A DNA stretch of 64,000 nucleotides from Acidobacteriota bacterium (GTDB lineage Bacteria; Acidobacteriota; Terriglobia; Acidiferrales; UBA7541), in NCBI GenBank assembly GCA_003223215.1, contig QHYH01000079.1, forward strand, positions 62,001 through 126,000, given 5' to 3'. Position 1 is the first letter of the stretch. Each line of letters starts with the position of its first letter. Both the position numbers and the translations under genes were made by a program. Below the pieces are notes generated by a model that saw only the letters and a program-made list of their open reading frames with translations, was not told the DNA's origin and did no database searches. Of this stretch, positions 26,103-43,450 are shown piece by piece.

Positions 26103-26576
26103 ATGCGTCGGACGATCTTCATTGCGAGTGCAGTGCTGCTCTGTGGAATTCTCTGCCCCAAGCCAAATTTCACTCAGGAAAAAACGGGCTCCTCGGAACC
26201 CAAGATGACGCCCGAGGATGCCGCAAAGAAAAACCCCATTACGCCCTCGCCAGAAGGACTGGCGGAAGCACGCAAGCAGTACGGGTATGACTGTGCCATG
26301 TGCCACGGCAAGGATGGAGGCGGTAAAGGCGACCTTGCCCAGGATATGAAACTGGAGCTTCATGACTGGCGTGATCCCTCGACGATTGAAAAGATGACGG
26401 ACGGCGAGCTCTTCTGGGTCATCAGCTACGGCAGGGGGAAAATGGTGGGAGGGGAAGCTGACCGGTCACCTGAAAAGATGCGCTGGAAACTCGTGAATCT
26501 GGTGCGCTCCTTTGGAAAGAAGGGCGCGGGGACGGCGGCAGCCGCGGACAAGCCCAAGACCGAGCCCCAACCTTAA
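26103..26576 (+). CDS. Secreted mono-haem cytochrome c
   Basis: A 157-residue protein with a signal peptide (IFIASAVLLCGILC) and one haem site CAMCH at about residues 64-68, followed by GKDGGGKGDLA as in small class I cytochromes. The distal Met is probably in YGRGKMVGGEAD near residue 110. GGGAGGATGCT ahead of the ATG serves as ribosome binding site. A cytochrome c located about 1.2 kb in front of the ACIII/oxidase operon could be its soluble electron carrier; this is inference from position. CTTAACTT occurs twice at 25986-25993 and 26000-26007 in the upstream region. Confidence 0.87.
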   Translation: MRRTIFIASAVLLCGILCPKPNFTQEKTGSSEPKMTPEDAAKKNPITPSPEGLAEARKQYGYDCAMCHGKDGGGKGDLAQDMKLELHDWRDPSTIEKMTDGELFWVISYGRGKMVGGEADRSPEKMRWKLVNLVRSFGKKGAGTAAAADKPKTEPQP

Positions 26577-26700
26577 CCCATCCAGGCGAGCTCCTCTCGG
26601 TGACTCGCAACGCCAGCTATATAGCAAGCCTGCCGATCACCTCCGGCCGCTCGTTGACTCGTGGTATGCTCGCTTGAAGAATTTTTTGAGGAGCACGTTC

Positions 26701-27072
26701 ATGGCCCACCCGCCGCAGTTTTTGAAGCTGGTCAACGAGGCGAAGAAGAACATTAAAGAGACGAATGTAGCCGAGGTCAAGCGCCGCCTCGATGCGGGAG
26801 AGAAATTGATCCTGGTGGATACTCGCGAGGACAGCGAGTGGGCCAACGGACACCTACCCGGAGCGATCCACTTGGGAAAAGGCGTCATCGAGCGCGACAT
26901 CGAACAGCAGGTGCCTGATACGAAGAGCAAACTCATTCTGTACTGTGGTGGCGGCTTCCGTTCCGCGCTGGCCGCGGAAAATCTTCAGAAAATGGGTTAC
27001 TCCAACGTGGAATCGATGGACGGCGGATGGAAGGGCTGGATTTCCGCCGGATTGCCTACGGCCAAGGGATAA
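26701..27072 (+). CDS. Single-domain rhodanese-like sulfurtransferase
   Basis: A 123-residue cytoplasmic rhodanese domain. LILVDTREDSEWANGHLPGA is the N-terminal signature (at most of its usual form) and Cys82 in LYCGGGFRSALAA is the active-site residue that would carry persulfide. SMDGGWKGW and AGLP close the domain as usual. GAGGAG seven bases before the ATG at 26701 fixes the start; an open frame runs upstream but has no protein character. The physiological partner is unknown. It ends 38 bases before the convergent tRNA-Asn gene. Confidence 0.9.
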   Translation: MAHPPQFLKLVNEAKKNIKETNVAEVKRRLDAGEKLILVDTREDSEWANGHLPGAIHLGKGVIERDIEQQVPDTKSKLILYCGGGFRSALAAENLQKMGYSNVESMDGGWKGWISAGLPTAKG

Positions 27073-27186: not shown

Positions 27187-27701
27187 GCGGGCGCCAATTC
27201 CCCGACGATCGCGGGGAAATGAAGTAGGTGGGCTCTGCCGCAGGACCGGCCGGCAGGGTTATCTCTAAAATACCACGGAATCGACACAGGACGCTCGGCG
27301 GTTGTTCAAAAAATTTCCCAAAAATCTTTGCACCCATTGCCTCCCTCGTGCATCTAGAACCATGGAAGCCGACATTCAGAAGGGAGTGGAAGGGCATTCG
27401 CTTTTTTTTGAAGAAGCTGGAGAATCTGAACCGCACCAAGCCGGCGGACGATCCCCGCAGTAGCTGATCGAGACGGGCCACCGAGCGGGTCAGTGCAAAC
27501 GAACCTGCGTCAGGTTTTTTACGGATATGCGTGCCGCGAGCGATTTCATATTCTGGGAAGACGCCGCGAAGGAAAATGCGTTTGAAATTTGCGACATGAA
27601 AAAAGTTGAAGCAGAAGTCTAAGACCTGAAGTTCTTGAAGTTCTTGAGAAAGGTTGCAATCCAGAAAGTTTTGGTGGAAACTATGCGGTCGACTGGCCCG
27701 G
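27187..27701. other. Gene-free stretch before the ACIII operon
   Basis: About 515 bases between tRNA-Asn and the inverted repeat in front of actA. Short open frames occur on both strands, but none has a ribosome binding site together with protein-like composition. GAAGTTCTT is repeated in tandem near 27625-27642. It probably carries the promoter of the respiratory operon, but I could not pick a convincing -10/-35 pair. Confidence 0.5.
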
Positions 27702-27779
27702 GTTTTGCACTTCCCGGTTAACACGTGGGACGCCCTAGCCTAGGGCCCATTCAGCGCGCTCCCCGCCAAAGTGCAAAAC
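27702..27779 (+). promoter_or_regulatory. Nested inverted repeat immediately upstream of actA
   Basis: GTTTTGCACTT (27702-27712) and AAGTGCAAAAC (27769-27779) are perfect 11-base inverted arms. Between them, nearly in the centre, GCCCTAG-C-CTAGGGC (27732-27746) is a perfect 7-base palindrome. The right arm ends only four bases before the actA ATG and no Shine-Dalgarno sequence is visible there. It could be an operator for a dimeric repressor or an RNA fold that controls translation of the operon's first gene. Confidence 0.5.
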
Positions 27780-27783
27780 GAGC

Positions 27784-28443
27784 ATGGCGCAGATTTTTCA
27801 TCGAAGCACAAACTTCATCGCCCGATTTAGTGTCTTCTCGTTTATTTTTATCATGGGTTTTGCGGTCTTGGCGGTGCTCCAGGCGGCACGTTCTCCTTAC
27901 ATGACGCGCCAGAACATCACGCGCGAACAACCCGTGCAGTTCAGCCACAAACATCATGTGGGAGACGACGGAATCGATTGCCGCTACTGCCACACGAGCG
28001 TAGAGATTTCAGCGGTGGCGGGAATCCCACCGACCAAGACGTGCATGAACTGCCATTCCGTACTGTTCAGCAATGCGGGCTATCTCGATCCGGTGCGCGA
28101 AAGCTATCGCACCGACACCTCGATTGAATGGGTCAAGGTGCATCGGCTGGCGGACTTCGTGTATTTCAACCACAGCATACACGTCAACAAGGGCGTCGGC
28201 TGCACCACCTGTCACGGCCCGATCGACCAGATGCCGCTGGTCTTTCAGGCCAGCACCCTGCTCATGCAGTGGTGCGTAGATTGCCACAGGAATCCCGCGC
28301 CGAACCTCCGGTCAATGGACAAGGTATTTGCGATGGATTGGAAACCGGGAGCCGATCAGGAGGAATTGGGCGAGAAATTCATGAAGGAACGAAAGATTCG
28401 GACAGCCGCCGAGCTGACCAGTTGCTCGACCTGTCATCGCTAG
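27784..28443 (+). CDS. actA: ActA, penta-haem cytochrome c subunit of Alternative Complex III
   Basis: A 219-residue protein anchored by one N-terminal membrane helix (FSVFSFIFIMGFAVLAVL). Five CxxCH haem sites are present: CRYCH, CMNCH, CTTCH, CVDCH and CSTCH, the last at the very C terminus. QFSHKHHVGDDGIDC is a typical start of the haem domain. In ACIII, ActA with ActE carries electrons from quinol oxidation out to a cytochrome or directly to the oxidase. It is the first gene of a twelve-gene operon; actB starts eight bases after its stop. Confidence 0.95.
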   Translation: MAQIFHRSTNFIARFSVFSFIFIMGFAVLAVLQAARSPYMTRQNITREQPVQFSHKHHVGDDGIDCRYCHTSVEISAVAGIPPTKTCMNCHSVLFSNAGYLDPVRESYRTDTSIEWVKVHRLADFVYFNHSIHVNKGVGCTTCHGPIDQMPLVFQASTLLMQWCVDCHRNPAPNLRSMDKVFAMDWKPGADQEELGEKFMKERKIRTAAELTSCSTCHR

Positions 28444-28451
28444 CGGATCGT

Positions 28452-31621
<3,170 letters not shown>

Positions 31622-31625
<4 letters not shown>

Positions 31626-33007
31626 GCGCCGGGCAGCCGCCAATTGATTCCTCCGAAATCCGCCGCCTCACGCCAGTGCTAGGCCCGGGCTACACTTTTG
31701 GCTCGGTCACCGACAAAATCAGCTCCATCGTCCTCACGCGGCCGACTTCCTTCGGCTGGTACATGGGTTTTTTGATTGCCTTCGGCCTCACTGGCTTGAT
31801 GACCGTCGCCATCGGCTGGCTCTTCACCAAGGGCACGGGCATCTGGGGCATCAACATCCCCATCGGCTGGGGCTTCGCCATCGTGAATTTCGTCTGGTGG
31901 ATCGGTATCGGCCACGCCGGGACGCTCATTTCGGCCATCCTGTTCCTCTTGAACCAGAAGTGGCGCACCTCGATCAACCGATTTGCCGAAGCCATGACGC
32001 TCTTTGCGGTGGCCTGCGCGGGCATTTTCCCGCTGATTCACACCGGGCGCCCGTGGATGGCCTTTTATATGTTCCCCTATCCCAGCACCATGGGCCTCTG
32101 GCCGCAGTTTCGCAGCCCGCTGATCTGGGACGTTTTTGCGGTTTCCACATACGGAACGGTTTCGCTGATTTTCTGGTTCGTGGGCTTGATCCCGGACCTG
32201 GCCACGCTTCGCGATCACGCAGTTAAAAGGCCGGCGCAGATTATCTACGGCATGCTTTCCATGGGCTGGCGGGGTTCCGCACGGCACTGGCACCGCTACC
32301 AGTCCGCCTATCTTCTGCTGGCGGGCCTGGCCACGCCGCTCGTGCTCTCCGTGCACACCGTGGTGAGTTTCGATTTCGCCATCGCCATTGTTCCCGGCTG
32401 GCATACGACCATCTTCCCGCCGTACTTTGTCGCCGGGGCCATCTACTCCGGCTTCGCCATGGTCCTGACCATCGCCATCCCCTTGCGCAAAGCTTATGGC
32501 CTAGAAGATTTCATCACCATGAGGCACCTCGACAACATGGCCAAGGTCATGCTCGCGACCGGCCTGATCGTGGCCTACGGCTACTTCTTCGAAATGTTCC
32601 TGTCACTCTACAGCGGAAATAAATTTGATGTGTTCCTCGTCGAGCAGCGCCTGCACGGCCCGTATGCTCCGTTCTACTACGCGCTGATTCTTTGCAACAT
32701 CCTCATGCCGCAAATGCTGTGGTCTTACAGATTGCGCCACAACGTCGCGTTCTTGTTCTTTATGTCCATCGTGGTGAACGTCGGCATGTGGCTCGAGCGT
32801 TTCGTCATCGTGGTGATCAGCTTGACGCGCGATTTCGTTCCGTCCGCTTGGGGACGCTACTGGCCCACCTTCTGGGACTGGGCTACCTTCATCGGCACCA
32901 TCGGCATGTTTGTGACTTTACTGTTCCTGTTCGTCCGCGTTTTACCGGCGATTTCCATTGCAGAGATGCGCGAGCTTGTAGCGGAGACTTCTGAGGACAA
33001 AAAGTAA
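31622..33007 (+). CDS. actC: ActC, NrfD/PsrC-like quinol-binding membrane subunit of ACIII
   Basis: A 461-residue integral membrane protein with about ten helices of the NrfD/PolyS reductase family. In ACIII this subunit oxidises menaquinol and may couple to proton movement. Visible family blocks are WWIGIGHAGTLISAILFLL, IHTGRPWMAFYMFPYP, SVHTVVSFDFA and HTTIFPPYFVAGAI. It overlaps actB by ATGA at its start and actD by one base at its end, so all three are translationally coupled. ActF, encoded further on, is its paralogue. Confidence 0.95.
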
Positions 33008-33549
33008 TGGAGCAGCGTTCTCATATTTATGGGGTGCTGGCAGAGTTTGCTACTCCGGAACAGCTCCTCGAAGCCGTCAAGAAGGTGCGCGAGGCCGGCT
33101 ATCGCCACATAGACGCCTTTACGCCGTTTCCCGTCGAAGGCCTCTACGAAGCCATGGGTTTGAAGCGCAACAACGTGCCGCTCATTACCCTGCTCGGCGG
33201 TTTGGCCGGTGGTATTGGCGGTTTTGGTTTCCAATATTGGGTGAACACCTTGGCCTACCCCATGAATATCGGGGGCCGCCCGCTGAATAGCTGGCCGGCA
33301 TTTATTCCCGTGACCTTTGAGCTTACCGTCCTGGGCGCCTCTCTCTGTGCGGTCTTCGGCATGCTCGCGCTCAACCGCCTCCCGCATCCGCACCATCCCG
33401 TCTTCAACGTGCATCGCTTCAAGCACGCATCGTCGGACCGCTTTTTCCTTTGCATCGAGTCCAACGACGCAAAATTTCATGTGGAGGAATGCGCGCGTTT
33501 CCTGCACGACCTCCATGCGCATCATGTCACAGAGGTTGCCAATGATTAG
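33007..33549 (+). CDS. actD: ActD, DUF3341 membrane subunit of ACIII
   Basis: A 180-residue protein of the DUF3341 family. The N-terminal domain (YGVLAEFATPEQLLEAVKKV, then DAFTPFPVEGLYEAMG) faces the cytoplasm, followed by two membrane helices (LITLLGGLAGGIGGFGFQYW and FELTVLGASLCAVFGMLA). ActD is thought to hold the membrane part of ACIII together; no cofactor site is present. Its ATG overlaps the actC stop (TAATG) and its 3' end overlaps actE by eight bases. Confidence 0.94.
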   Translation: MEQRSHIYGVLAEFATPEQLLEAVKKVREAGYRHIDAFTPFPVEGLYEAMGLKRNNVPLITLLGGLAGGIGGFGFQYWVNTLAYPMNIGGRPLNSWPAFIPVTFELTVLGASLCAVFGMLALNRLPHPHHPVFNVHRFKHASSDRFFLCIESNDAKFHVEECARFLHDLHAHHVTEVAND

Positions 33550-34189
33550 CCGATCGCGCTTCCTGCTCGTCGGCTGCGCTGCGGCGGCCTTGCTCTCGAG
33601 CGCGGGCTGCCGGTATCTGCACCAAGACATGGCCGACCAGCCAAAGAACCGGCCGCTCTCTCCTTCGGATTTCTTCCCCGATGGCCGGTCCGAACGCCCG
33701 CCGGTTGAAAATACCGTGGCTCGCGGCGCCCCGGCCGACGATGACCTGTTCGCGCCCAAGGATTCCAACGCTTTCCCGTTGCCTGTGAACCAGGAACTGC
33801 TCGAACGCGGCGAGGAGCGTTACAAGATTTTCTGCTCTCCGTGTCACGGCCTGCAAGGCGACGGCAACGGCACGATTGCCATGCGCGGCATGAAGCGTCC
33901 GCCCACCTACCATCAGGACCGTCTTCGCCAGGCGCCTAACGGCTATTTCTACGACAACATCACCAACGGTTTTGGCGCCATGTACGGCTACTCGGCACAG
34001 ATTCCTCCGCGGGACCGCTGGGCCATCATTGCCTACGTTCGCGCATTGCAGCTCAGCCGCAACGCGAAGGTGGCGGATCTCCCGACCGCACTTCGCCAAA
34101 AGTTGGGCCAGGCCGGCTTCACCAAGCCGGGGTCCGAGCCGAAGCCAGAAACAAGCACGACGAAAGAATCCACCGGAGGGCGTAACTGA
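33542..34189 (+). CDS. actE: ActE, mono-haem cytochrome c lipoprotein subunit of ACIII
   Basis: A 215-residue lipoprotein: signal peptide with lipobox SAGC, then a class I cytochrome domain. The haem site is CSPCHGLQGDGNG and the distal Met is likely in MRGMKRPPTYH or further on in NGFGAMYGY. ActE is the electron exit side of ACIII together with ActA. The start ATG at 33542 lies inside the end of actD, and the stop overlaps the actF start (TGATG). The open frame extends upstream through actD, but only the part from 33542 is protein-like. Confidence 0.94.
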   Translation: MISRSRFLLVGCAAAALLSSAGCRYLHQDMADQPKNRPLSPSDFFPDGRSERPPVENTVARGAPADDDLFAPKDSNAFPLPVNQELLERGEERYKIFCSPCHGLQGDGNGTIAMRGMKRPPTYHQDRLRQAPNGYFYDNITNGFGAMYGYSAQIPPRDRWAIIAYVRALQLSRNAKVADLPTALRQKLGQAGFTKPGSEPKPETSTTKESTGGRN

Positions 34190-35376
34190 TGGCCGAGCAG
34201 CAATATTCTGCGCCCGAAAGCGTGACCCGTCTCGAGCAGCGTGCGTTTGTTGTTGGCGCCGTGGCCCTGGGGCTGGCCGCCTTAGGAGCCCTTCGTTCGC
34301 CAGAGACCTTTTATCCCTCCTATTTGATGAGTTTCCTGCTGGTATTGGGCCTGGCGCTCGGTTCCCTGGGGCTCGTGATGCTGCAACACCTAACTTCCGG
34401 CCACTGGGGCATCATCATCCGCCGTCCGCTCGAATCGGCTACGCGCACGCTGCCGCTGCTGGTTGTGCTCTTCCTGCCGATCGCCATCTCAGGCATGAAA
34501 CACCTGTATCGCGCGTGGCTCGATCCCGAGGAACTTCACAAAGAGCCGTTGTCAAAATTCCAGCAGGGCTATCTCACCCATAATGGCTATCTCGTGCGCG
34601 CCCTCATCTATTTTGCGGTGTGGCTGGCCCTGATGTTCATCTTTAACGGTTTGTCCAAGCAGCAGGACACCAACCGGGAGGATCGCGCCCTGCGCCGCAG
34701 GCTGAAAATGCTGGCCGGACCCGGAATCATCCTTTATGTATTCGCCATGAGTTTCGCGGCCATCGACTGGGTGATGTCTCTCTCTCCGCACTGGGCTTCG
34801 ACCATCTATGGGTTCCTGTTCGTCGCCGGCCAGCTCGTCTCCTCCATGTCCTTCATGATTTCGACGGTCGTGCTGCTGGCTCGAACGGAGCCCTTTTCGA
34901 ACGTGCTGCAGGCCCGCCATCTGCATGATCTCGGCAAGCTTCTTCTGGCCTTTGTCATGCTGTGGGCGTACTTCGATTTCTCGCAATTGCTCATCATCTG
35001 GTCGGGAAATCTGCCTGAAGAAATCACCTTTTACCGCACGCGCCTCTACGGAGAGTGGGGCGTCGTGGCCGTCATTGTGCTGGTGTTTCATTTCTTTGTT
35101 CCCTTCTTCCTGCTGCTTTCGCAGGACCTCAAACGCAATCGCAAAGTGCTGCCCAGAATCGCCATGTGGCTCATCCTGATGCGCCTGGTGGACCTTTTCT
35201 GGATGACCCGGCCGGAGTTCACCTCCCGCGCCGTACCCACTTGGCTCGATCTGCTCTTGCCCATCGCCCTGGGCGGCTTGTGGCTCGGCTTCTTTGCTTT
35301 CAACCTAAAGCAATGCCCGCTTTTGCCGCTCGGCGACCCGGGACTCGCGGAGGCCATTAAACATCATGAGCACTGA
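34189..35376 (+). CDS. actF: ActF, NrfD/PsrC-like membrane subunit of ACIII
   Basis: A 395-residue integral membrane protein with about ten helices, paralogous to ActC and forming the second half of the ACIII membrane core. Blocks such as YPSYLMSFLLVLGLALGSLG, MLQHLTSGHWGIIIRRPLE, MSFAAIDWVMSLSPHW and HFFVPFFLLLSQDLKR are typical of ActF. In known structures it lacks the quinol site found in ActC. Its 3' end overlaps the following small membrane protein gene by 11 bases. Confidence 0.94.
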   Translation: MAEQQYSAPESVTRLEQRAFVVGAVALGLAALGALRSPETFYPSYLMSFLLVLGLALGSLGLVMLQHLTSGHWGIIIRRPLESATRTLPLLVVLFLPIAISGMKHLYRAWLDPEELHKEPLSKFQQGYLTHNGYLVRALIYFAVWLALMFIFNGLSKQQDTNREDRALRRRLKMLAGPGIILYVFAMSFAAIDWVMSLSPHWASTIYGFLFVAGQLVSSMSFMISTVVLLARTEPFSNVLQARHLHDLGKLLLAFVMLWAYFDFSQLLIIWSGNLPEEITFYRTRLYGEWGVVAVIVLVFHFFVPFFLLLSQDLKRNRKVLPRIAMWLILMRLVDLFWMTRPEFTSRAVPTWLDLLLPIALGGLWLGFFAFNLKQCPLLPLGDPGLAEAIKHHEH

Positions 35377-35830
35377 GCCTCATTCGAGCGGTCAGCCGAC
35401 CGGCCGCGGGCCGCGGCACGCGGACGTCGCTTTCGAAGAACGCGACATCAAGCCCAGCACTATGTATTGGTACTTGTTGGCCTTGGGCCTGGCCACCGCC
35501 GGCGCTCTGCTCATCTGCATTTTTGTTTTGCGCTTTACCTCCAACCTCGCGGCTTCTTCCGAGGCCCCGCCCCCACCCTCCCGAGTGGCACAAAGCAAGG
35601 ATGCTCGCATGCCCCCCGAACCGCGGCTGCAAGGTGTTCCCGGGCACCCCAACGATCCGCAGAAGGACTTGCGGGAAAAACTGCAGGCGGATACGGCCGC
35701 CAACGAGAAGCTGGAATGGATCGACAAAAATGCCGGGATCGCCCAGATTCCCGTCAAAGAAGCGATGAAAATCATTGCCCAAAAGGGTTTGCCCACGGCC
35801 ACGGCGCCGCCGGCAGAAAATAAGAAATAA
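35366..35830 (+). CDS. Small single-helix membrane protein of the ACIII operon
   Basis: A 154-residue protein with one membrane helix (MYWYLLALGLATAGALLICI, about 33-55) preceded by a short cytoplasmic part (HADVAFEERDIKPS). A proline-rich linker follows, then an outward domain that ends with EWIDKNAGIAQIPVKEAMKI and LPTATAPP. I cannot assign a characterised family. The segment around GIAQIPVKEAM resembles the end of small proteins encoded with oxidase or ACIII genes in acidobacteria, as far as I recall. It overlaps actF by 11 bases and is five bases from sco1, so it is certainly made with the complex. It may be an accessory subunit (the place where ActG/ActH occur elsewhere) or an assembly factor. 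Confidence 0.75.
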   Translation: MSTEPHSSGQPTGRGPRHADVAFEERDIKPSTMYWYLLALGLATAGALLICIFVLRFTSNLAASSEAPPPPSRVAQSKDARMPPEPRLQGVPGHPNDPQKDLREKLQADTAANEKLEWIDKNAGIAQIPVKEAMKIIAQKGLPTATAPPAENKK

Positions 35831-35834
35831 AGAG

Positions 35835-36704
35835 ATGACGAGATCCGCTGAGATTCTCCTGATCGCCGTACTGCTGGCTCGGCCGCTGGCCTTGCCGGCG
35901 CAAACTACTCCGGGCGGGGTGGGCCGGCCGGCCGCGACCATGCCCCCCGTCTTGCAGAACGTGGGCTTCGAGCCCGAGCTCAACCGCCAGGTGCCCCTTG
36001 ACGTTCCGTTCCAGGACGAATCCGGCCGCAGCGTCCAGCTTCGCGACTACTTTCACCGCAAGCCGGTGGTCCTGGCCTTTGTCTATTACCGCTGCCCCAT
36101 GCTCTGCAATCAAGTGCAGCAGGGTGTGGTTGGCGCGCTGCGCATGCTTTCCTTCAACCCCGGCCACGACTACGAAGTGGCCTTCATCAGTTTTGATCCG
36201 CGTGATACGCCGGAAATGGCCGCGGAGAAAAAGCAAGCCGCACTCTCCCGCTTTGGCCGCCGCGAAACCGAATCGGGCTGGCATTTTCTAACGGGTGCTC
36301 GAGAATCCATCGATCGCGTCACCGAGGCCGCCAACTTTCGCTATAGCTTCAGCGCCAAAACAAATCTCTTCGCCCATGCGAGCGGCGTCCTCCTGCTCAC
36401 CCCGGACGGCCGCATCTCGCGCTACTTCTATGGGGTTGAATACCCTGGCCGGGACATGCGCCTCGGCCTCGTCGACGCCTCGGAGGGAAAAATCGGCACG
36501 CCCATCGACCACGTGCTCCTTTTTTGCTATCAATACGACCCCTCGACGGCCACCTATAGCGCGGCGATTCTCAAGCTGGTCCGGCTGGGCGGCGTGCTGA
36601 CGATTCTTTGCCTGGTCGGAGGAATTCTGATTGCGCGCCGGCGCGAGAAGTTGGCGGCCAGGAATTTCGACCGGCCGCTTTCCGCCGGAGGAACGAGGAG
36701 CTGA
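35835..36704 (+). CDS. sco1: SCO1/SenC copper chaperone for cytochrome c oxidase
   Basis: A 289-residue protein that delivers copper to the CuA site of oxidase subunit II. It has a signal peptide (ILLIAVLLARPLALPA), a thioredoxin-like domain with the copper-binding CPMLC in YYRCPMLCNQV and the conserved His in FAHASGV, and a C-terminal membrane helix (LGGVLTILCLVGGILIA) that is not found in all SCO proteins. ISFDPRDTPEMA is the family signature. It starts five bases after the preceding gene and ends eight bases before ctaC, fitting its role in assembling that subunit. Confidence 0.93.
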   Translation: MTRSAEILLIAVLLARPLALPAQTTPGGVGRPAATMPPVLQNVGFEPELNRQVPLDVPFQDESGRSVQLRDYFHRKPVVLAFVYYRCPMLCNQVQQGVVGALRMLSFNPGHDYEVAFISFDPRDTPEMAAEKKQAALSRFGRRETESGWHFLTGARESIDRVTEAANFRYSFSAKTNLFAHASGVLLLTPDGRISRYFYGVEYPGRDMRLGLVDASEGKIGTPIDHVLLFCYQYDPSTATYSAAILKLVRLGGVLTILCLVGGILIARRREKLAARNFDRPLSAGGTRS

Positions 36705-36711
36705 ATAGACC

Positions 36712-37695
36712 GTGCAGTCGCCATTGCCCATTTACCCCGAGCAAGCTTCCAACTTTGCGCCGCACGTCGACGCGCTGCTGATCTTCATCACCGGGATTTG
36801 CCTGCTCTTTGGGGCCATCATCACCACCGCCATTGTCTTTTGCTTCTTTAAGTATCATCGCAAGGAAGCGGGCGCGGTCGGGATCGTTACCTACGAGGAT
36901 CCGCTGGTCGAGGTGGCCTGGATCGTCGCTCCCCTGATTCTCGCCATGGTCATGTTTGCCTGGGGCGCAATCGTTTATGTCGACTATCGCAACGCGCCGC
37001 GCGACACGCTCGATATTTATGTAGTCGGCAAGCAGTGGATGTGGAAGGCGCAGCAGCCCAATGGATTAAAGGAAATCAACGAATTGCACGTTCCGGTGGG
37101 CCGCGATATCCGGCTGATCCTTGCCAGCGAGGACGTTATCCACGATTTCTTCGTCCCAGCGTTCCGCGTGAAGATGGACGTGGTTCCCGGCCACTACAAC
37201 ACCATGTGGTTCCGACCCACAAAGCCTGGCCGTTATCACTTTTTTTGCTCGCAGTATTGCGGCACCAATCACGCCGTTATGGGCGGGTGGGTTACGGTTA
37301 TGGAGCCTACCGATTACGCCGCGTGGCTTTCCGGGGTATCGGGCGGCGAGGCCAATCCCGTGGCTGCGGGTGAAAAGCTCTTCGCAGAAAAATCCTGCGT
37401 TACCTGCCATCTCGCCAACGGCACCGGCCGCGCTCCCTCGCTCAACGGCCTGTACGGCGGCCAAGTGCTGCTGGCTGACGGAAGCACGGTCACCGCCGAC
37501 GACGCCTACATCCGCGAATCCATTCTTCAGGCCAACGCGAAAATTGTGGCCCGCTATCAGCCGCTCATGCCCAACTACCAGGGCCAATTGACGGAAGAAC
37601 AGATTTTCGCGCTTATCGCGTACATTAAGTCTCTGCAGTCCCAGCCCGTGCCCGCCACGGGCTCCGGAATTGCCCCAGTCTCGGAGAAGAAGTAG
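36712..37695 (+). CDS. ctaC: Cytochrome c oxidase subunit II with fused cytochrome c (caa3 type)
   Basis: A 327-residue subunit II: two membrane helices (LLIFITGICLLFGAIITTAI and VEVAWIVAPLILAMVMFAW), a cupredoxin domain with the CuA site CSQYCGTNHAVM, and a C-terminal cytochrome c domain (about 215-310) with haem site CVTCH and distal Met in QPLMPNYQG. It receives electrons from ACIII or a cytochrome c and passes them to subunit I. Translation starts at GTG 36712, following GAGGAG. It lies between sco1 and ctaD with minimal gaps. Confidence 0.95.
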   Translation: MQSPLPIYPEQASNFAPHVDALLIFITGICLLFGAIITTAIVFCFFKYHRKEAGAVGIVTYEDPLVEVAWIVAPLILAMVMFAWGAIVYVDYRNAPRDTLDIYVVGKQWMWKAQQPNGLKEINELHVPVGRDIRLILASEDVIHDFFVPAFRVKMDVVPGHYNTMWFRPTKPGRYHFFCSQYCGTNHAVMGGWVTVMEPTDYAAWLSGVSGGEANPVAAGEKLFAEKSCVTCHLANGTGRAPSLNGLYGGQVLLADGSTVTADDAYIRESILQANAKIVARYQPLMPNYQGQLTEEQIFALIAYIKSLQSQPVPATGSGIAPVSEKK

Positions 37696-37698
37696 GTT

Positions 37699-39372
37699 AT
37701 GAACAACACGCCGCCAACACCATCCTACGAACCGCCTCGCGATCATTATTTGATCTCGGCTGGCGGCCACATCCGCTCCTGGCTGCTGACCACCGATCAC
37801 AAGCGCATCGCTTTGCTGTATCTCATCTCGGTGACGGTTTTCTTTTTCATCGGCGGCGTCTTCGCCACGATGATTCGCATCCATCTGCTGACCCCCGACG
37901 GGGTGCTCGTCACGCCCGAGACTTACAACAAGCTTTTCACCATGCATGGCGTGGCCATGATTTTCTTTTTCCTGATTCCATCCATCCCCGCCGTCCTGGG
38001 CAATTTCCTTATCCCCATGATGATCGGCGCGAAGGATCTGGCCTTCCCGAAAATCAATCTTTTGAGCTGGTACATTTACCTCATCGGCGGCAGCTTCGTG
38101 CTCTATTCCTTCAGCACCGGAGGCCTGGACACCGGCTGGACCTTCTACACGCCGCTCAGCAGCATCTATTCGAACTCCGCGGTCACGCCGGCGGTGCTCG
38201 GCATCTTCATCAACGGGTTTTCGTCGATTCTGACAGGCCTCAATTTCATCGTCACCATCCACACCATGCGCGCGCCGGGCATGACCTGGTTCCGCCTGCC
38301 GCTTTTTGTCTGGTCGCACTATGCCACCAGCCTGGTCATGATTCTGGGCACTCCCGTCGTGGCTATTACGCTCCTGCTTGCCGGCCTCGAACGCATGTTT
38401 CACCTGGGCTTTTTCAATCCGGCCATGGGCGGCGATCCCATTCTGTTCCAGCATCTGTTCTGGTTCTATTCCCACCCCGCGGTGTACATCATGGTTCTCC
38501 CGGCCATGGGAGTGGTCAGCGAAATCATTCCCACCTTCGCGCGCAAACCTATTTTCGGCTACTCCTTCATCGCCGCTTCAAGCATCGCCATCGCCGTCAT
38601 TGGCTTCTTGGTTTGGGCGCACCACATGTTTGTCACCGGTGAGTCCACCTATGCGGCATTGACCTTTTCCTTCCTGAGCTACCTGGTAGCCATCCCTTCG
38701 GCCGTCAAAGTTTTCAACTGGACGGCGACACTCTATAAAGGTTCGATTTCCTGGGACGCGCCAATGCTCTATGCTCTCGGGTTCATAGGCTTGTTCACCA
38801 TTGGCGGTCTTACCGGGCTGTTCCTGGCCTGCCTGGGCCTGGACATTCATATCCATGACACGTATTTCGTCATCGCGCACTTCCACTACATCATGGTTGG
38901 CGGCGCGGTGATGGGGTACGTCGGCGGACTGCACTATTGGTGGCCTAAAATTACCGGACGGCTTTATCCGGAGGCCCTGTCGCACTTCGCGGCCATCGTT
39001 CTCTTTCTCGGCTTCAACCTCACCTTCTTCCCGCAATTCATTCTTGGGTATCTCGGCATGCCGCGTCGCTATCACAGCTATCCGCCGGAGTTTCAAGTGC
39101 TCAACGTCCTGTCGACCGCGGGCGCTTCCATCCTGGCGCTCGGCTATCTCTTGCCAATGGCCTACCTGAGCTGGTCCATGCGTTACGGCAAAGTTGCCGG
39201 TCCGAATCCCTGGCCCGCCACGGGCCTCGAGTGGAAAACGGATTCGCCGCCTCCCACGGAGAATTTTCACGTTACCCCAGTTGTCGACTGGGAGCCCTAC
39301 GATTACCGGAATCGCCCGGATCTTGGTTTGGCTGCGGGAGCGCCGCTGGCGCCGGCTCACAGCGACGATTAG
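37699..39372 (+). CDS. ctaD: Cytochrome c oxidase subunit I, A2-type haem-copper oxidase
   Basis: A 557-residue core subunit with 12 membrane helices that reduces oxygen to water and pumps protons. Visible landmarks are the low-spin haem His in [32 protein letters not shown] (CuB His with the cross-linked Tyr), the CuB pair in [10 protein letters not shown] and the haem ligands in [16 protein letters not shown]. The YSHP form, in place of GHPE, puts it in the A2 subfamily, which uses Tyr-Ser instead of the Glu in the D channel. It starts three bases after ctaC. Confidence 0.96.
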
Positions 39373-39443
39373 GTTTGGCAGCTTGTATGAGACGGGGCGT
39401 GCTTTTTAACGCCACCTTCTCGGAAGCAAAACAGGAGCAGGGA

Positions 39444-40175
39444 GTGCATCGCACCGGAGAACTATACGGGCAATTTCAAACCCTGGACCAGCAGAAGGAA
39501 TCCGCCACCTTCGGCATGTGGATCTTTCTGGTCACCGAAGTGTTGTTCTTCGGCGGCATGTTTCTGACCTACACCATCAACCGCCACGAATACTTCACGG
39601 CGTTCGGCATCGGCAGCAACACCTTGGACATCACGCTCGGCACGGTCAACACCATCGTGCTGATCATGAGCAGCTTTACCATGGCCATGGCCGTGTGGTC
39701 CGCCGAAACGGGCAAGAAGAAGCTTGTTCCGCTTTTCCTGATTCTCACCTTAGGCCTCGGATGTGTCTTCCTCGGCATCAAGTTTGTCGAATACAAGCAG
39801 AAATTCGAGCACCATCTGATTCCCGGCCGCAATTTTGCTATCACCTATCGGTCGTCCCATCCCGCCCCGGGCGACGATCCCAAAGAAATTGCTCTGGAGA
39901 AGGAAGAGGTGGAGAAGGCCTTCGCGTCCGATCCCGATGCCAACTCTCATGCGCAGCTTTACTTTTCGCTCTATTTCGCCATGACCGGGCTTCACGCCCT
40001 GCACATGATCGTGGGCGCCGGCCTGATCGTCTGGCTGATCAAGGCTTCGCTCCGCGGCCGCTTCACGCCGCAGTACAACACGCCGGTCGAGATCGTCGGC
40101 TTGTACTGGCACTTCGTCGATATTGTGTGGATTTATCTTTTCCCGTTGCTATATCTGATTGACCGTCATCGTTAG
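39444..40175 (+). CDS. ctaE: Cytochrome c oxidase subunit III
   Basis: A membrane protein with five helices (MWIFLVTEVLFFGGMFLTY, TLGTVNTIVLIMSSFTMAMA, LVPLFLILTLGLGCVFLGI, FSLYFAMTGLHALHMIVGAG and YWHFVDIVWIYLFPLLYLI), the shorter form of subunit III. GLHALHMIVGAG and YWHFVDIVWIYLFP are invariant family blocks. The GTG at 39444 is preferred because AGGAG lies six bases ahead, giving 243 residues; an in-frame ATG at 39387 would add 19 residues but has no clear ribosome binding site. A charged loop at about 130-175 (DPKEIALEKEEVEKAF) is an unusual insertion. Confidence 0.9.
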   Translation: MHRTGELYGQFQTLDQQKESATFGMWIFLVTEVLFFGGMFLTYTINRHEYFTAFGIGSNTLDITLGTVNTIVLIMSSFTMAMAVWSAETGKKKLVPLFLILTLGLGCVFLGIKFVEYKQKFEHHLIPGRNFAITYRSSHPAPGDDPKEIALEKEEVEKAFASDPDANSHAQLYFSLYFAMTGLHALHMIVGAGLIVWLIKASLRGRFTPQYNTPVEIVGLYWHFVDIVWIYLFPLLYLIDRHR

Positions 40176-40190
40176 GGGGAGAAAAATCGC

Positions 40191-40523
40191 GTGCCTGAAC
40201 ATTCCGAACATGTCGTTTCCCCAAAGATCTACCTCAGCATCTTCCTCGCGCTCATTCTCGGCACGGGCCTCACGACCTGGGCGGCTTTCCGGAATTTTGG
40301 CCCGTTCAACATTGTCATTGCCCTGGCCATCGCCACCGCCAAGGCCACCCTCGTGGTTCTCTTCTTCATGCACGCTCGCTACGGCGAGCGACGTACCAGA
40401 CTCGTCATCGTTTGCGCGCTCTTCTGGCTGGCCATCATGCTTGCACTGACTCTTTCCGATTACCAGACCCGTCAGCCGCGCATGAGCCGCCTCCTTTCGC
40501 GAGCGGCCCATTACGCTGCCTGA
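40191..40523 (+). CDS. ctaF: Cytochrome c oxidase subunit IV (prokaryotic type)
   Basis: A 110-residue protein with three membrane helices (IYLSIFLALILGTGLTTW, IVIALAIATAKATLVVLFFMH and LVIVCALFWLAIMLALTLSD), matching the bacterial COX4/CtaF family, a small subunit that stabilises the oxidase. ATAKATLVVLFFMHARY is the family signature. GGGGGAG precedes the GTG start at 40191 by about seven bases. It is the last gene of the ACIII-oxidase operon. Confidence 0.92.
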   Translation: MPEHSEHVVSPKIYLSIFLALILGTGLTTWAAFRNFGPFNIVIALAIATAKATLVVLFFMHARYGERRTRLVIVCALFWLAIMLALTLSDYQTRQPRMSRLLSRAAHYAA

Positions 40524-40949: not shown

Positions 40950-40962
40950 AGGAGGTGTGGGC

Positions 40963-41865
40963 ATGCCTCGTGTCGTCCGCTGCGGCCTGATTCAAGCGCA
41001 TTGTGATTGGTCTCCGGAAAAATATTTGCTGCTAGACATAAAAAAGAAGATGATCGCCAAGCACGAGCACCTCATCGCCGCCGCCGCCAAGAAAAAAATA
41101 CGAATCCTCGGCCTCCAGGAGCTTTTTTATGGTCCTTATTTTTGCGCCGAACAGGAAACTCGCTGGTACGAGCTCACCGAGCGCGTCCCCAAAGGCCCCA
41201 CCATCTCGCTCATGCAGAAACTTGCGAAAAAATATCAAATGGCGCTTATCGTGCCAGTCTACGAAGTGGAAATGACCGGCGTTTATTACAACACCGCCGC
41301 GGTCATCGACGCTGACGGCCGCTATTTGGGCAAATACCGCAAGCACCACATACCTCATTGCCATCCCGGTTTTTGGGAAAAATTTTACTTCACGCCCGGA
41401 AACTCCGGTTATCCCGTCTTTCAAACGCGTTACGCCCGCGTCGGCGTGTACATTTGTTACGACCGCCACTTCCCGGAAGGCGCCCGCGTCCTTGGCCTCC
41501 ATGGCGCCGAAATCGTTTACAACCCTTCTGCCACCGTCTCCGGGCTCTCCGAGTACCTCTGGGAGCTAGAGCAGCCCGCTCACGCCGTCGCCAATACTTA
41601 TTTTGTTGCTGCCATCAACCGCGTCGGCACTGAGCATCCTTGGAAGATCGGCGAATTCTACGGCAAGAGCTATTTTTGCAATCCGCGCGGGAAAATTATT
41701 GCCCAGGCCAGCCGCGACAAGGATGAACTGCTCGTCGCCGACCTGGACCTCGATGAAATCCAAAAGGTCCGCGACACCTGGCAGTTTTATCGCGATCGCC
41801 GCCCCGAGTCCTATGGAGAAATTACACGCACGCTCACCGCGGCCTCTAGCGAAGCCGCCGATTAG
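40963..41865 (+). CDS. Beta-ureidopropionase-like amidase (nitrilase superfamily)
   Basis: A 300-residue carbon-nitrogen hydrolase with the Glu-Lys-Cys triad: Glu in LGLQELFYGPYFCAEQ, Lys in LGKYRKHHIPH and the nucleophile Cys in VGVYICYDRHFPEGARVLG. HHIPHCHPGFWEKFYFTPGN is typical of N-carbamoyl-beta-alanine amidohydrolases and N-carbamoylputrescine amidases. Because dihydropyrimidinase and a nucleobase permease follow, the likely reaction is N-carbamoyl-beta-alanine to beta-alanine, CO2 and ammonia, the third step of reductive pyrimidine breakdown; hydantoin-derived N-carbamoyl amino acids are an alternative. AGGAGGTG six bases ahead fixes the ATG at 40963 over the GTG at 40957. Confidence 0.88.
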   Translation: MPRVVRCGLIQAHCDWSPEKYLLLDIKKKMIAKHEHLIAAAAKKKIRILGLQELFYGPYFCAEQETRWYELTERVPKGPTISLMQKLAKKYQMALIVPVYEVEMTGVYYNTAAVIDADGRYLGKYRKHHIPHCHPGFWEKFYFTPGNSGYPVFQTRYARVGVYICYDRHFPEGARVLGLHGAEIVYNPSATVSGLSEYLWELEQPAHAVANTYFVAAINRVGTEHPWKIGEFYGKSYFCNPRGKIIAQASRDKDELLVADLDLDEIQKVRDTWQFYRDRRPESYGEITRTLTAASSEAAD

Positions 41866-42016
41866 GACATGTTGCGTGTCTAAATTTGAGACGGACTTGA
41901 AAGGACGGCCCGCCTGTGTATCATCCTGAGCTCATCCGAGCAAGATGGCCGGTGGATCTCGAGCGTCAACCCTCGTCGCAATCCATCGAGGTGGAGAGAA
42001 AAGGTCAAGGCTTCGA

Positions 42017-43450
42017 ATGAGCGAATCTCACGGCCAGGCGCTTCACGCGGACATCGTCGAATCTAGCTCTCTCTACAACAAGGACCTCGCGCCTGTTCGT
42101 TCCGAGCGCCGCCTCTGGCGTACCTACAACTACGCCGCTTTGTGGATCTCCATGAGCGTCAACATCCCGACCTACATGCTCGCCAGCGGAATGATTGCCG
42201 GCGGCATGAGCTGGAAACAGGCGCTTTTCACCGTTTTTCTCGGCAACGTCCTCGTGCTGATCCCCATGCTGCTCAACGCGCACGCCGGCGCGCAATACGG
42301 CATCCCGTTTCCCGTTTTTGCCCGCGCTTCTTTCGGTACACTCGGCGCGAATATTCCCGCGATTCTCCGAGCTCTGGTCGCTTGCGGCTGGTTTGGCATT
42401 CAAACCTGGATTGGCGGCGAAGCCATCAACGCCATGATCGTGGCCCTCGCTCCGGGCTGGGCCAAGGTCCACTCTGGCCCAGCCGGCTGCTTTGTGCTCT
42501 TCTGGCTTCTCAATGTCTTCGTCATCCTGCGGGGCATCGAGACCATCCGCTTCCTGCAAGGCATCTCCGCGCCCTTCTTGCTCCTCATCGGCCTGGTTCT
42601 TCTTCTCTGGGCGCGCAGCAAAGCCGGCGGTTTCGGCCCCATGCTTTCGACGCCCTCGAAATTTCAATCGTTCGGCGGTTTTTTCGAGTTCTTTGTCCCC
42701 TCGCTTACCGGCGTCGTCGGCTTTTGGGCCACCGTTTCTCTGAACATTCCCGATTTCACACGCTACGCCCGCAGCCAGCGGGACCAGATGATTGGCCAGG
42801 CCCTGGGCCTGCCCGCCACGATGACCTTCTACTCTTTCATCGGCATCGCCGTCACTTCCGCCACCATGATCATTTTCGGTCAAGCCATCTGGGATCCCGT
42901 CAAAGTCCTGGAGCGCCTCGGCCATCCCTGGGCCGTGGTGCTCGCCATGATCGGCTTGCTCATGGCCACGCTCAATGTCAACGTCGCCGCCAACGTCGTC
43001 TCTCCCGCCAACGACTTCTCCAATCTTTCCCCGCGCCGCATCAGTTTTCGTACCGGCGGCATGATCACCGCCGTTGTGGGCCTGCTCATGCAGCCCTGGA
43101 AGCTGCTGTCGAGCTATGGCAGCTACATTTTTACCTGGCTTGTTGGCTACTCCGGCTTTCTCGGCCCCATCGCCGGCGTTTTGATCTGCGATTATTTCGT
43201 GCTGCGGAAGAAAATTCTTTCGCTTGATGACCTTTACCGGCGCAGCGGCCAGTATGAATATTCCCGTGGCTTTCATTGGGCCGCCATCGTCGCGCTGGCG
43301 GCCGGCGCGGGCGTCGCGTTCGTCGGCCTGATCGTCCCGCCGCTACGGGCGCTCTACAACTACGCCTGGTTTGTCGGCTTCCTCGTCAGCTTTGTCGTCT
43401 ATTTCGCGTTCATGCCCAAGCCTGCGCCTGCCGTTGAGGCCGCGGACTAG
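42017..43450 (+). CDS. NCS1-family nucleobase/hydantoin permease
   Basis: A 477-residue inner-membrane symporter with about 12 helices of the nucleobase:cation symporter-1 family (uracil, allantoin, cytosine, hydantoin). The N-terminal SLYNKDLAPVRSERRLW and YNYAALWISMSVNIPTYMLA match the NCS1 signature; VACGWFGIQTWIGGEAI, NIPDFTRYARSQRDQMIGQ and VAANVVSPANDF are further family blocks. With the surrounding enzymes it probably imports uracil, thymine or a hydantoin. The ATG at 42017 is chosen as the first codon of the recognisable N terminus. Confidence 0.92.
   Translation: MSESHGQALHADIVESSSLYNKDLAPVRSERRLWRTYNYAALWISMSVNIPTYMLASGMIAGGMSWKQALFTVFLGNVLVLIPMLLNAHAGAQYGIPFPVFARASFGTLGANIPAILRALVACGWFGIQTWIGGEAINAMIVALAPGWAKVHSGPAGCFVLFWLLNVFVILRGIETIRFLQGISAPFLLLIGLVLLLWARSKAGGFGPMLSTPSKFQSFGGFFEFFVPSLTGVVGFWATVSLNIPDFTRYARSQRDQMIGQALGLPATMTFYSFIGIAVTSATMIIFGQAIWDPVKVLERLGHPWAVVLAMIGLLMATLNVNVAANVVSPANDFSNLSPRRISFRTGGMITAVVGLLMQPWKLLSSYGSYIFTWLVGYSGFLGPIAGVLICDYFVLRKKILSLDDLYRRSGQYEYSRGFHWAAIVALAAGAGVAFVGLIVPPLRALYNYAWFVGFLVSFVVYFAFMPKPAPAVEAAD

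Follow-up and report, generated by a model that had tools for sequence, protein, structure and literature searches.

The actA-led operon

The window, a stretch of 64,000 nucleotides of acidobacterial DNA, contains a twelve-gene ACIII-oxidase operon led by actA. Behind actA follow, in this order, actB, actC (NrfD), actD, actE, actF, a small ORF, SCO1, COX2, COX1, an ORF in the place of COX3 and COX4_pro. Pfam matches and gene order agree with the twelve-gene respiratory operon proposed in a preliminary description of the locus, the ORF in the COX3 place being without a Pfam match. The gene in the actE place is a cytochrome c gene; the names actE and actF rest on position, and the start of actB at 28453 on the ATG seen there. 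Start and stop codons overlap or lie close together in most cases. Upstream on the same strand, at 26103-27072, are a small c-type cytochrome ORF and a rhodanese-domain ORF. Downstream of the operon, at 40957-43450, are a carbon-nitrogen hydrolase and a permease of the cytosine/purine/allantoin type. The features discussed below are collected in Table 1.

Table 1. Features of the actA leader and operon, in window coordinates
Feature	Position	Strand	Basis or remark
Conserved block GTTGCA..TTTT..GGAAACTA....GTC, candidate promoter/operator	27653..27690	+	Conservation peak
P1 5' strand CCGGG	27698..27702	+	RNAalifold; 95.0% of cells paired vs 89.2% in tree-aware null, p=0.005
Loop L1 UUUU	27703..27706	+	3-5 nt in 31/32 leaders
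Pseudoknot 5' strand GCACUU (P1 loop; inner left arm)	27707..27712	+	Pairs with 27769-27774
P1 3' strand CCCGG, directly after pseudoknot strand	27713..27717	+	RNAalifold; gap 0 nt in 31/32
P2 5' strand GTGGGACGC	27725..27733	+	Pair 27729-27762 E=0.05; P2 paired above null
7-nt palindrome, competes with inner P2	27732..27746	+	In 6/32 leaders
P2 3' strand GCTCCCCGC	27758..27766	+	Covariation tests
Pseudoknot 3' strand AAGUGC, at expected Shine-Dalgarno place	27769..27774	+	Spacer to AUG mostly 9 nt
A-rich spacer to start codon	27775..27783	+	Sequence
actA, multihaem cytochrome subunit of ACIII	27784..28443	+	Pfam; relatives at 52-98% identity
Remaining operon genes	28453..40523	+	Pfam, gene order

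The same description had seen no Shine-Dalgarno (SD) sequence before actA, and the calculation bears this out. Predicted pairing with the anti-SD sequence is only -0.4 kcal/mol for actA vs -3.8 to -10.0 kcal/mol for the eight other operon genes compared (actC, actD, actF, the small ORF, COX2, COX1, the ORF in the COX3 place and COX4_pro). Among the 32 distinct leaders, none has a clear SD sequence before actA; the strongest value is -4.0 (L052).

Paired arms before the start codon

The leader carries a perfect inverted repeat. Its left arm, 27702-27712, reads GTTTTGCACTT and its right arm, 27769-27779, reads AAGTGCAAAAC; both are 11 nt long, 100% complementary and 56 nt apart, and four bases (27780-27783) separate the right arm from the actA ATG at 27784. 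The arms thus lie where they had been described, as does the 7-base palindrome between them, whose strands are 27732-27738 and 27740-27746. First-order Markov shuffling of 27661-27790 produced perfect arms of at least 11 nt in 12 of 3000 runs, and 3 of 1065 pieces of 120 bp cut from the window contain such arms. Chance is therefore only moderately unlikely for the arms by themselves, which are unusual and suggestive but not decisive. The whole leader is no more stable than its dinucleotide shuffles (z -0.13). Perfect inverted repeats of at least 10 nt also occur in the 120-bp pieces that start at window positions 1081, 5521, 14521, 14641, 15601, 19261, 19321 and 42421. A third copy of AGTGCAAA lies at 27492-27499, about 200 bp upstream of the arms and outside the most conserved region; it is probably due to chance.

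A probable pseudoknot in the leaders of relatives

Alignment A1 comprises 30 leaders: 33 loci with at least 65% ActA identity, minus five, plus the window and L018. Left out were L040 and L059, which have too little upstream sequence, and L061, L063 and L064, which have diverged. The tree tests used 32 leaders, namely 37 matches minus the duplicates L134 and L136 and minus L061, L063 and L064; paired fractions would be lower with these three outliers included. The outliers were matched to genomes G024, G028 and G005, respectively, by their ActA identity values. In two further alignments, A2 and A3, P1 or P2 of some rows is out of register; A3 was used for model R2, and A2 was unused.

Unguided RNAalifold on the 30 leaders found P1, a helix of 5 bp around the left arm, together with P2. 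In the consensus, GCRCUU in the P1 loop pairs with AAGYGC across P2, which is clearest in L057 and L060, where it has 11 bp and a bulged pyrimidine. The spacer from the pseudoknot to the AUG is 9 nt in 25 of 32 leaders (range 8-12), and the stretch containing P2 varies from 51 to 57 nt. L1, the gap before the P1 3' strand and the spacer to the AUG are nearly fixed, and these distances match a compact H-type pseudoknot. Our best reading of the fold conserved across the 32 distinct leaders is, on comparative grounds, a pseudoknot and not a nested hairpin.

Pairing was compared with a tree-aware null in which the number of changes per column is kept and the changes are put on random branches (1000 runs). 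On the actA tree, 88.9% of cells of the 18-pair structure are paired vs 75.5% in the null (p=0.001), and compensatory double changes fall on 7 branches vs 1.08 (p=0.001). Taken separately, the paired fractions of P1, the pseudoknot and P2 give p=0.005, 0.001 and 0.001 on the actA tree, and 0.007, 0.037 and 0.001 on the leader's own tree. In P2, 82.1% of cells are paired vs 62.7%, with double changes on 4 branches vs 0.60, and in P1 compensatory changes occur in 2 of 5 pairs; the choice of both helices drew in part on these same sequences, and the alignment was fitted to the helices, which limits the independence of their tests. The source of the arms was the window alone, and the model does not contain them. 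Because they were proposed in this way, their test in relatives was set beforehand, and aligning the leaders, as the preliminary description had suggested, finds the arm pairing kept: 91.7% of cells of the pseudoknot helix are paired vs 78.9% in the null.

Individual pairs carry less signal. Double changes within the pseudoknot only lie on one branch of the actA tree (p=0.27) and on two of the leader tree (p=0.004). When all column pairs are put through the tree-aware test, the P2 pair 27729-27762 is the only one to reach E=0.05; the pseudoknot pair 27709-27772 has E=93, and many column pairs outside the fold rank higher. One-sided changes, with G-U vs A-C serving as a strand test, show no excess over the null, and the folding energy of the P2 region has a median z of -0.99. 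In the MAFFT alignment, the three helices are 91.0% paired, compared with 84.9% in shuffles and at most 60.7% when partners are slid by 1-3 columns, and 33 cells have changed on both sides vs 11.6 in shuffles.

All six pseudoknot pairs can form in 19 of the 32 leaders, five in 10 and four in 3. Six leaders have a mismatch within these pairs: A.C in L045 and L018, A.G in L053, U.U in L037 and L039, and two breaks in L062. The third pair is AU in 20 leaders, GC in 9, GU in 1 and AC in 2; on the actA tree its G-C forms group in two places, which makes about two events and not nine. Duplexes between the loop and the 3' strand beat shuffles at p<0.05 in 26 of 32 leaders. Statistically, then, the loop is paired with a strand at the ribosome-binding region, which is consistent with an element that acts on translation as a pseudoknot leader.

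The same data bear on the hairpin at the translation start that had been proposed for this site. Conservation in the genus gives good support to a structured control point there, but with the fold of a pseudoknot. A nested long-range hairpin, in which the 11-nt arms form a single long stem enclosing P2 or the palindrome, without P1, is the minimum-energy fold of the window's leader (-30.8 kcal/mol), the arms there forming a nested helix in place of P1. We nevertheless consider it very unlikely to be the conserved form: 95% of cells retain P1, with the compensatory changes given above, and its 3' strand follows the arm with no gap in 31 of 32 leaders. Since both folds share the arm pairing, the hairpin may represent an alternative state of one switch. 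As for the nested pattern, the arms hold their pairing in relatives but the central palindrome does not; it is limited to the window's nearest kin (6 of 32 leaders), and 100 of 224 cells pair. It is an incidental, local feature that competes with the conserved P2.

A double operator had been named as the alternative. In the form considered here, GTTTTGCACTT and AAGTGCAAAAC would be inverted half-sites of a transcription factor that loops the DNA between them. The arm core is nearly invariant, as a binding site would be (GC.CT in 29 of 30 leaders), and related half-sites can change together. However, the distance between the arms spans 68-74 bases without a fixed phase, and P1 and P2, for which an operator has no use, stay paired more often than the null predicts. 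Control at the DNA level is accordingly an improbable account of these arms.

Distribution across genomes

ActA is present in 83 of 89 genomes of the family, and 80 loci were kept from a second set of genome contigs. A covariance search with the leader plus its flanks gave a match in all 36 genomes of the genus at E<=0.01; three of these are weak (E 7.9e-5 to 0.007), one of them at a contig end. Nothing scored below E=0.2 in the 53 other genomes of the family. Across 299 genomes of the class, 30 of the 31 with matches at E<=0.05 belong to the genus, the one match outside it being G099 (E=0.025). With the leader alone, 33 of the 36 genus genomes match at E<=1.4e-8, with ends at the actA places (compared by eye); these 33 score at least 39.9 bits and the next at most 24.6 bits. 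Leaders from many of the same genomes went into building both models, so those matches arise by construction; the searches contribute the copy number, one per genome, and the bounds of the range. Three genus members, L061, L063 and L064, keep the upstream block and not the leader.

No convincing copy of the leader was found elsewhere, the second match in its own genome having E=0.21. The best of 297 genomes of the phylum besides its own, L145 (27.5 bits, E=4.7e-5 for one genome), was counted as chance; that match lies at the end of an ORF, before the ATG of an ABC transporter-like ORF, and is without the pseudoknot strand. Seven further matches in the phylum scored lower. A leader-peptide attenuator was rejected as well, the reading frames, read by eye, differing among the 32 leaders with none shared. 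Scanning the 4227 models of Rfam release 15 put no family above its gathering threshold, and the only rows up to E=10 were bxd_4 (12.9 bits, gathering 40) and Six3os1_3 (9.2 bits, gathering 40).

A putative translational control element

Position and pairing lead us to lean, somewhat beyond an even chance, towards a new leader RNA, restricted to one genus, that controls translation of the ACIII-oxidase operon. Transcription of the actA-led mRNA would begin just after the block at 27653-27690. The leader would then form P1 in the cell, and its loop GCRCUU would pair with AAGYGC beyond P2 to give an H-type pseudoknot, from hairpin loop to outside. As 9 nt separate the 3' strand from an AUG without an SD sequence, the closed pseudoknot is predicted to block loading of the 30S subunit on actA, and such a block would lower the whole operon through its closely packed genes. 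Opening of the pseudoknot by some ligand, protein or condition would permit initiation. One report describes strong plasmid expression of actA as lethal in Flavobacterium johnsoniae (PMC8552683), and this lethality could be a motive for tight control of actA.

A leader whose structure tunes only mRNA stability, or a constant low level of SD-less initiation, without any signal, would also be present in a single copy per genome before one gene, and the toxicity of excess ActA in another phylum, as described in the same report (PMC8552683), would suit it too. The left strand, however, reads GC.CT in 29 of 30 leaders and is nearer to invariant than pairing demands, which suggests a bound partner. 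We regard a purely passive leader as unlikely, though it deserves some weight. The translational control that we favor could be taken one step further, to a new natural RNA sensor class, found in a single genus of soil acidobacteria, in which binding of a respiratory signal to the pseudoknot would switch the whole operon's translation at its SD-less start. This is a doubtful extension; the signal might, for instance, be a small molecule linked to haem or redox state, or a protein of ACIII assembly.

Known leaders offer partial parallels. According to a review on preQ1 riboswitches, such folds act on translation, the preQ1-II class has an HLout pseudoknot with four pairing regions and a fully occluded SD, and in one group of these riboswitches pseudoknot formation can outweigh SD sequestration (PMC11625349). 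Shared with preQ1-II and other pseudoknot riboswitches of translation are a pseudoknot in the leader and a 3' strand at the ribosome-binding site; in contrast, the actA leader has no SD to occlude, precedes a respiratory gene and is found in one genus only. In the Rfam scan, the preQ1-II covariance model gave no row at E<=10 for the actA leader.

Autogenous pseudoknot leaders precede ribosomal-protein operons in E. coli, those of rpsO and the alpha operon. The actA element resembles them in being a structured leader that occurs once per genome, ahead of an operon's first gene and at its start codon, but the ACIII operon has no known RNA-binding protein and no evidence of feedback. Structured RNA candidates from acidobacteria have become Rfam families through comparative genomics, including Acido-1, Acido-Lenti-1 and similar motifs, none of which is matched by the actA leader in the Rfam scan. 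Literature listings (promoter, sigma-54, operon, riboswitch, 5 UTR) gave no report of RNA-level control of ACIII operons and no description of the actA leader element. If the proposal is true, an entire electron-transport chain in a soil lineage has its output set by one compact RNA, and six base pairs beside one start codon are a concrete, mutable target.

The conserved upstream block

Among genus members, conservation upstream of actA sets in abruptly at -131, peaks from -131 to -95 and extends to the ATG. This pattern suggests that the block at the peak is a promoter region. A consensus scan found no standard sigma-70 promoter at TTGCA..GGAAACTA (27654-27683). Written as TTGCA-N(17-21)-GGAAACTA, the block occurs once in the 8.8-Mb genome, at this locus; a first version, whose range of spacer lengths did not suit the window, gave zero matches.

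A sigma-54 promoter would place the start of transcription elsewhere. TGGCCCG-N4-TTGCA at 27694-27709 is a near match to the -24/-12 consensus, and RpoN is encoded in the genome; transcription would then start near 27720 and leave the left arm untranscribed. However, GG-N10-GC with TTGC is present in only 3 of 32 leaders, the overlapping P1 pairs in 95% of cells, and conservation begins far upstream, at -131. Such a promoter is highly improbable here.

L061, L063 and L064 keep the block although their leaders have diverged; the two elements are separable modules. In L064, the block (L064:2804-2873) lies about 75 nt farther from actA than in the window, with an unrelated leader between.
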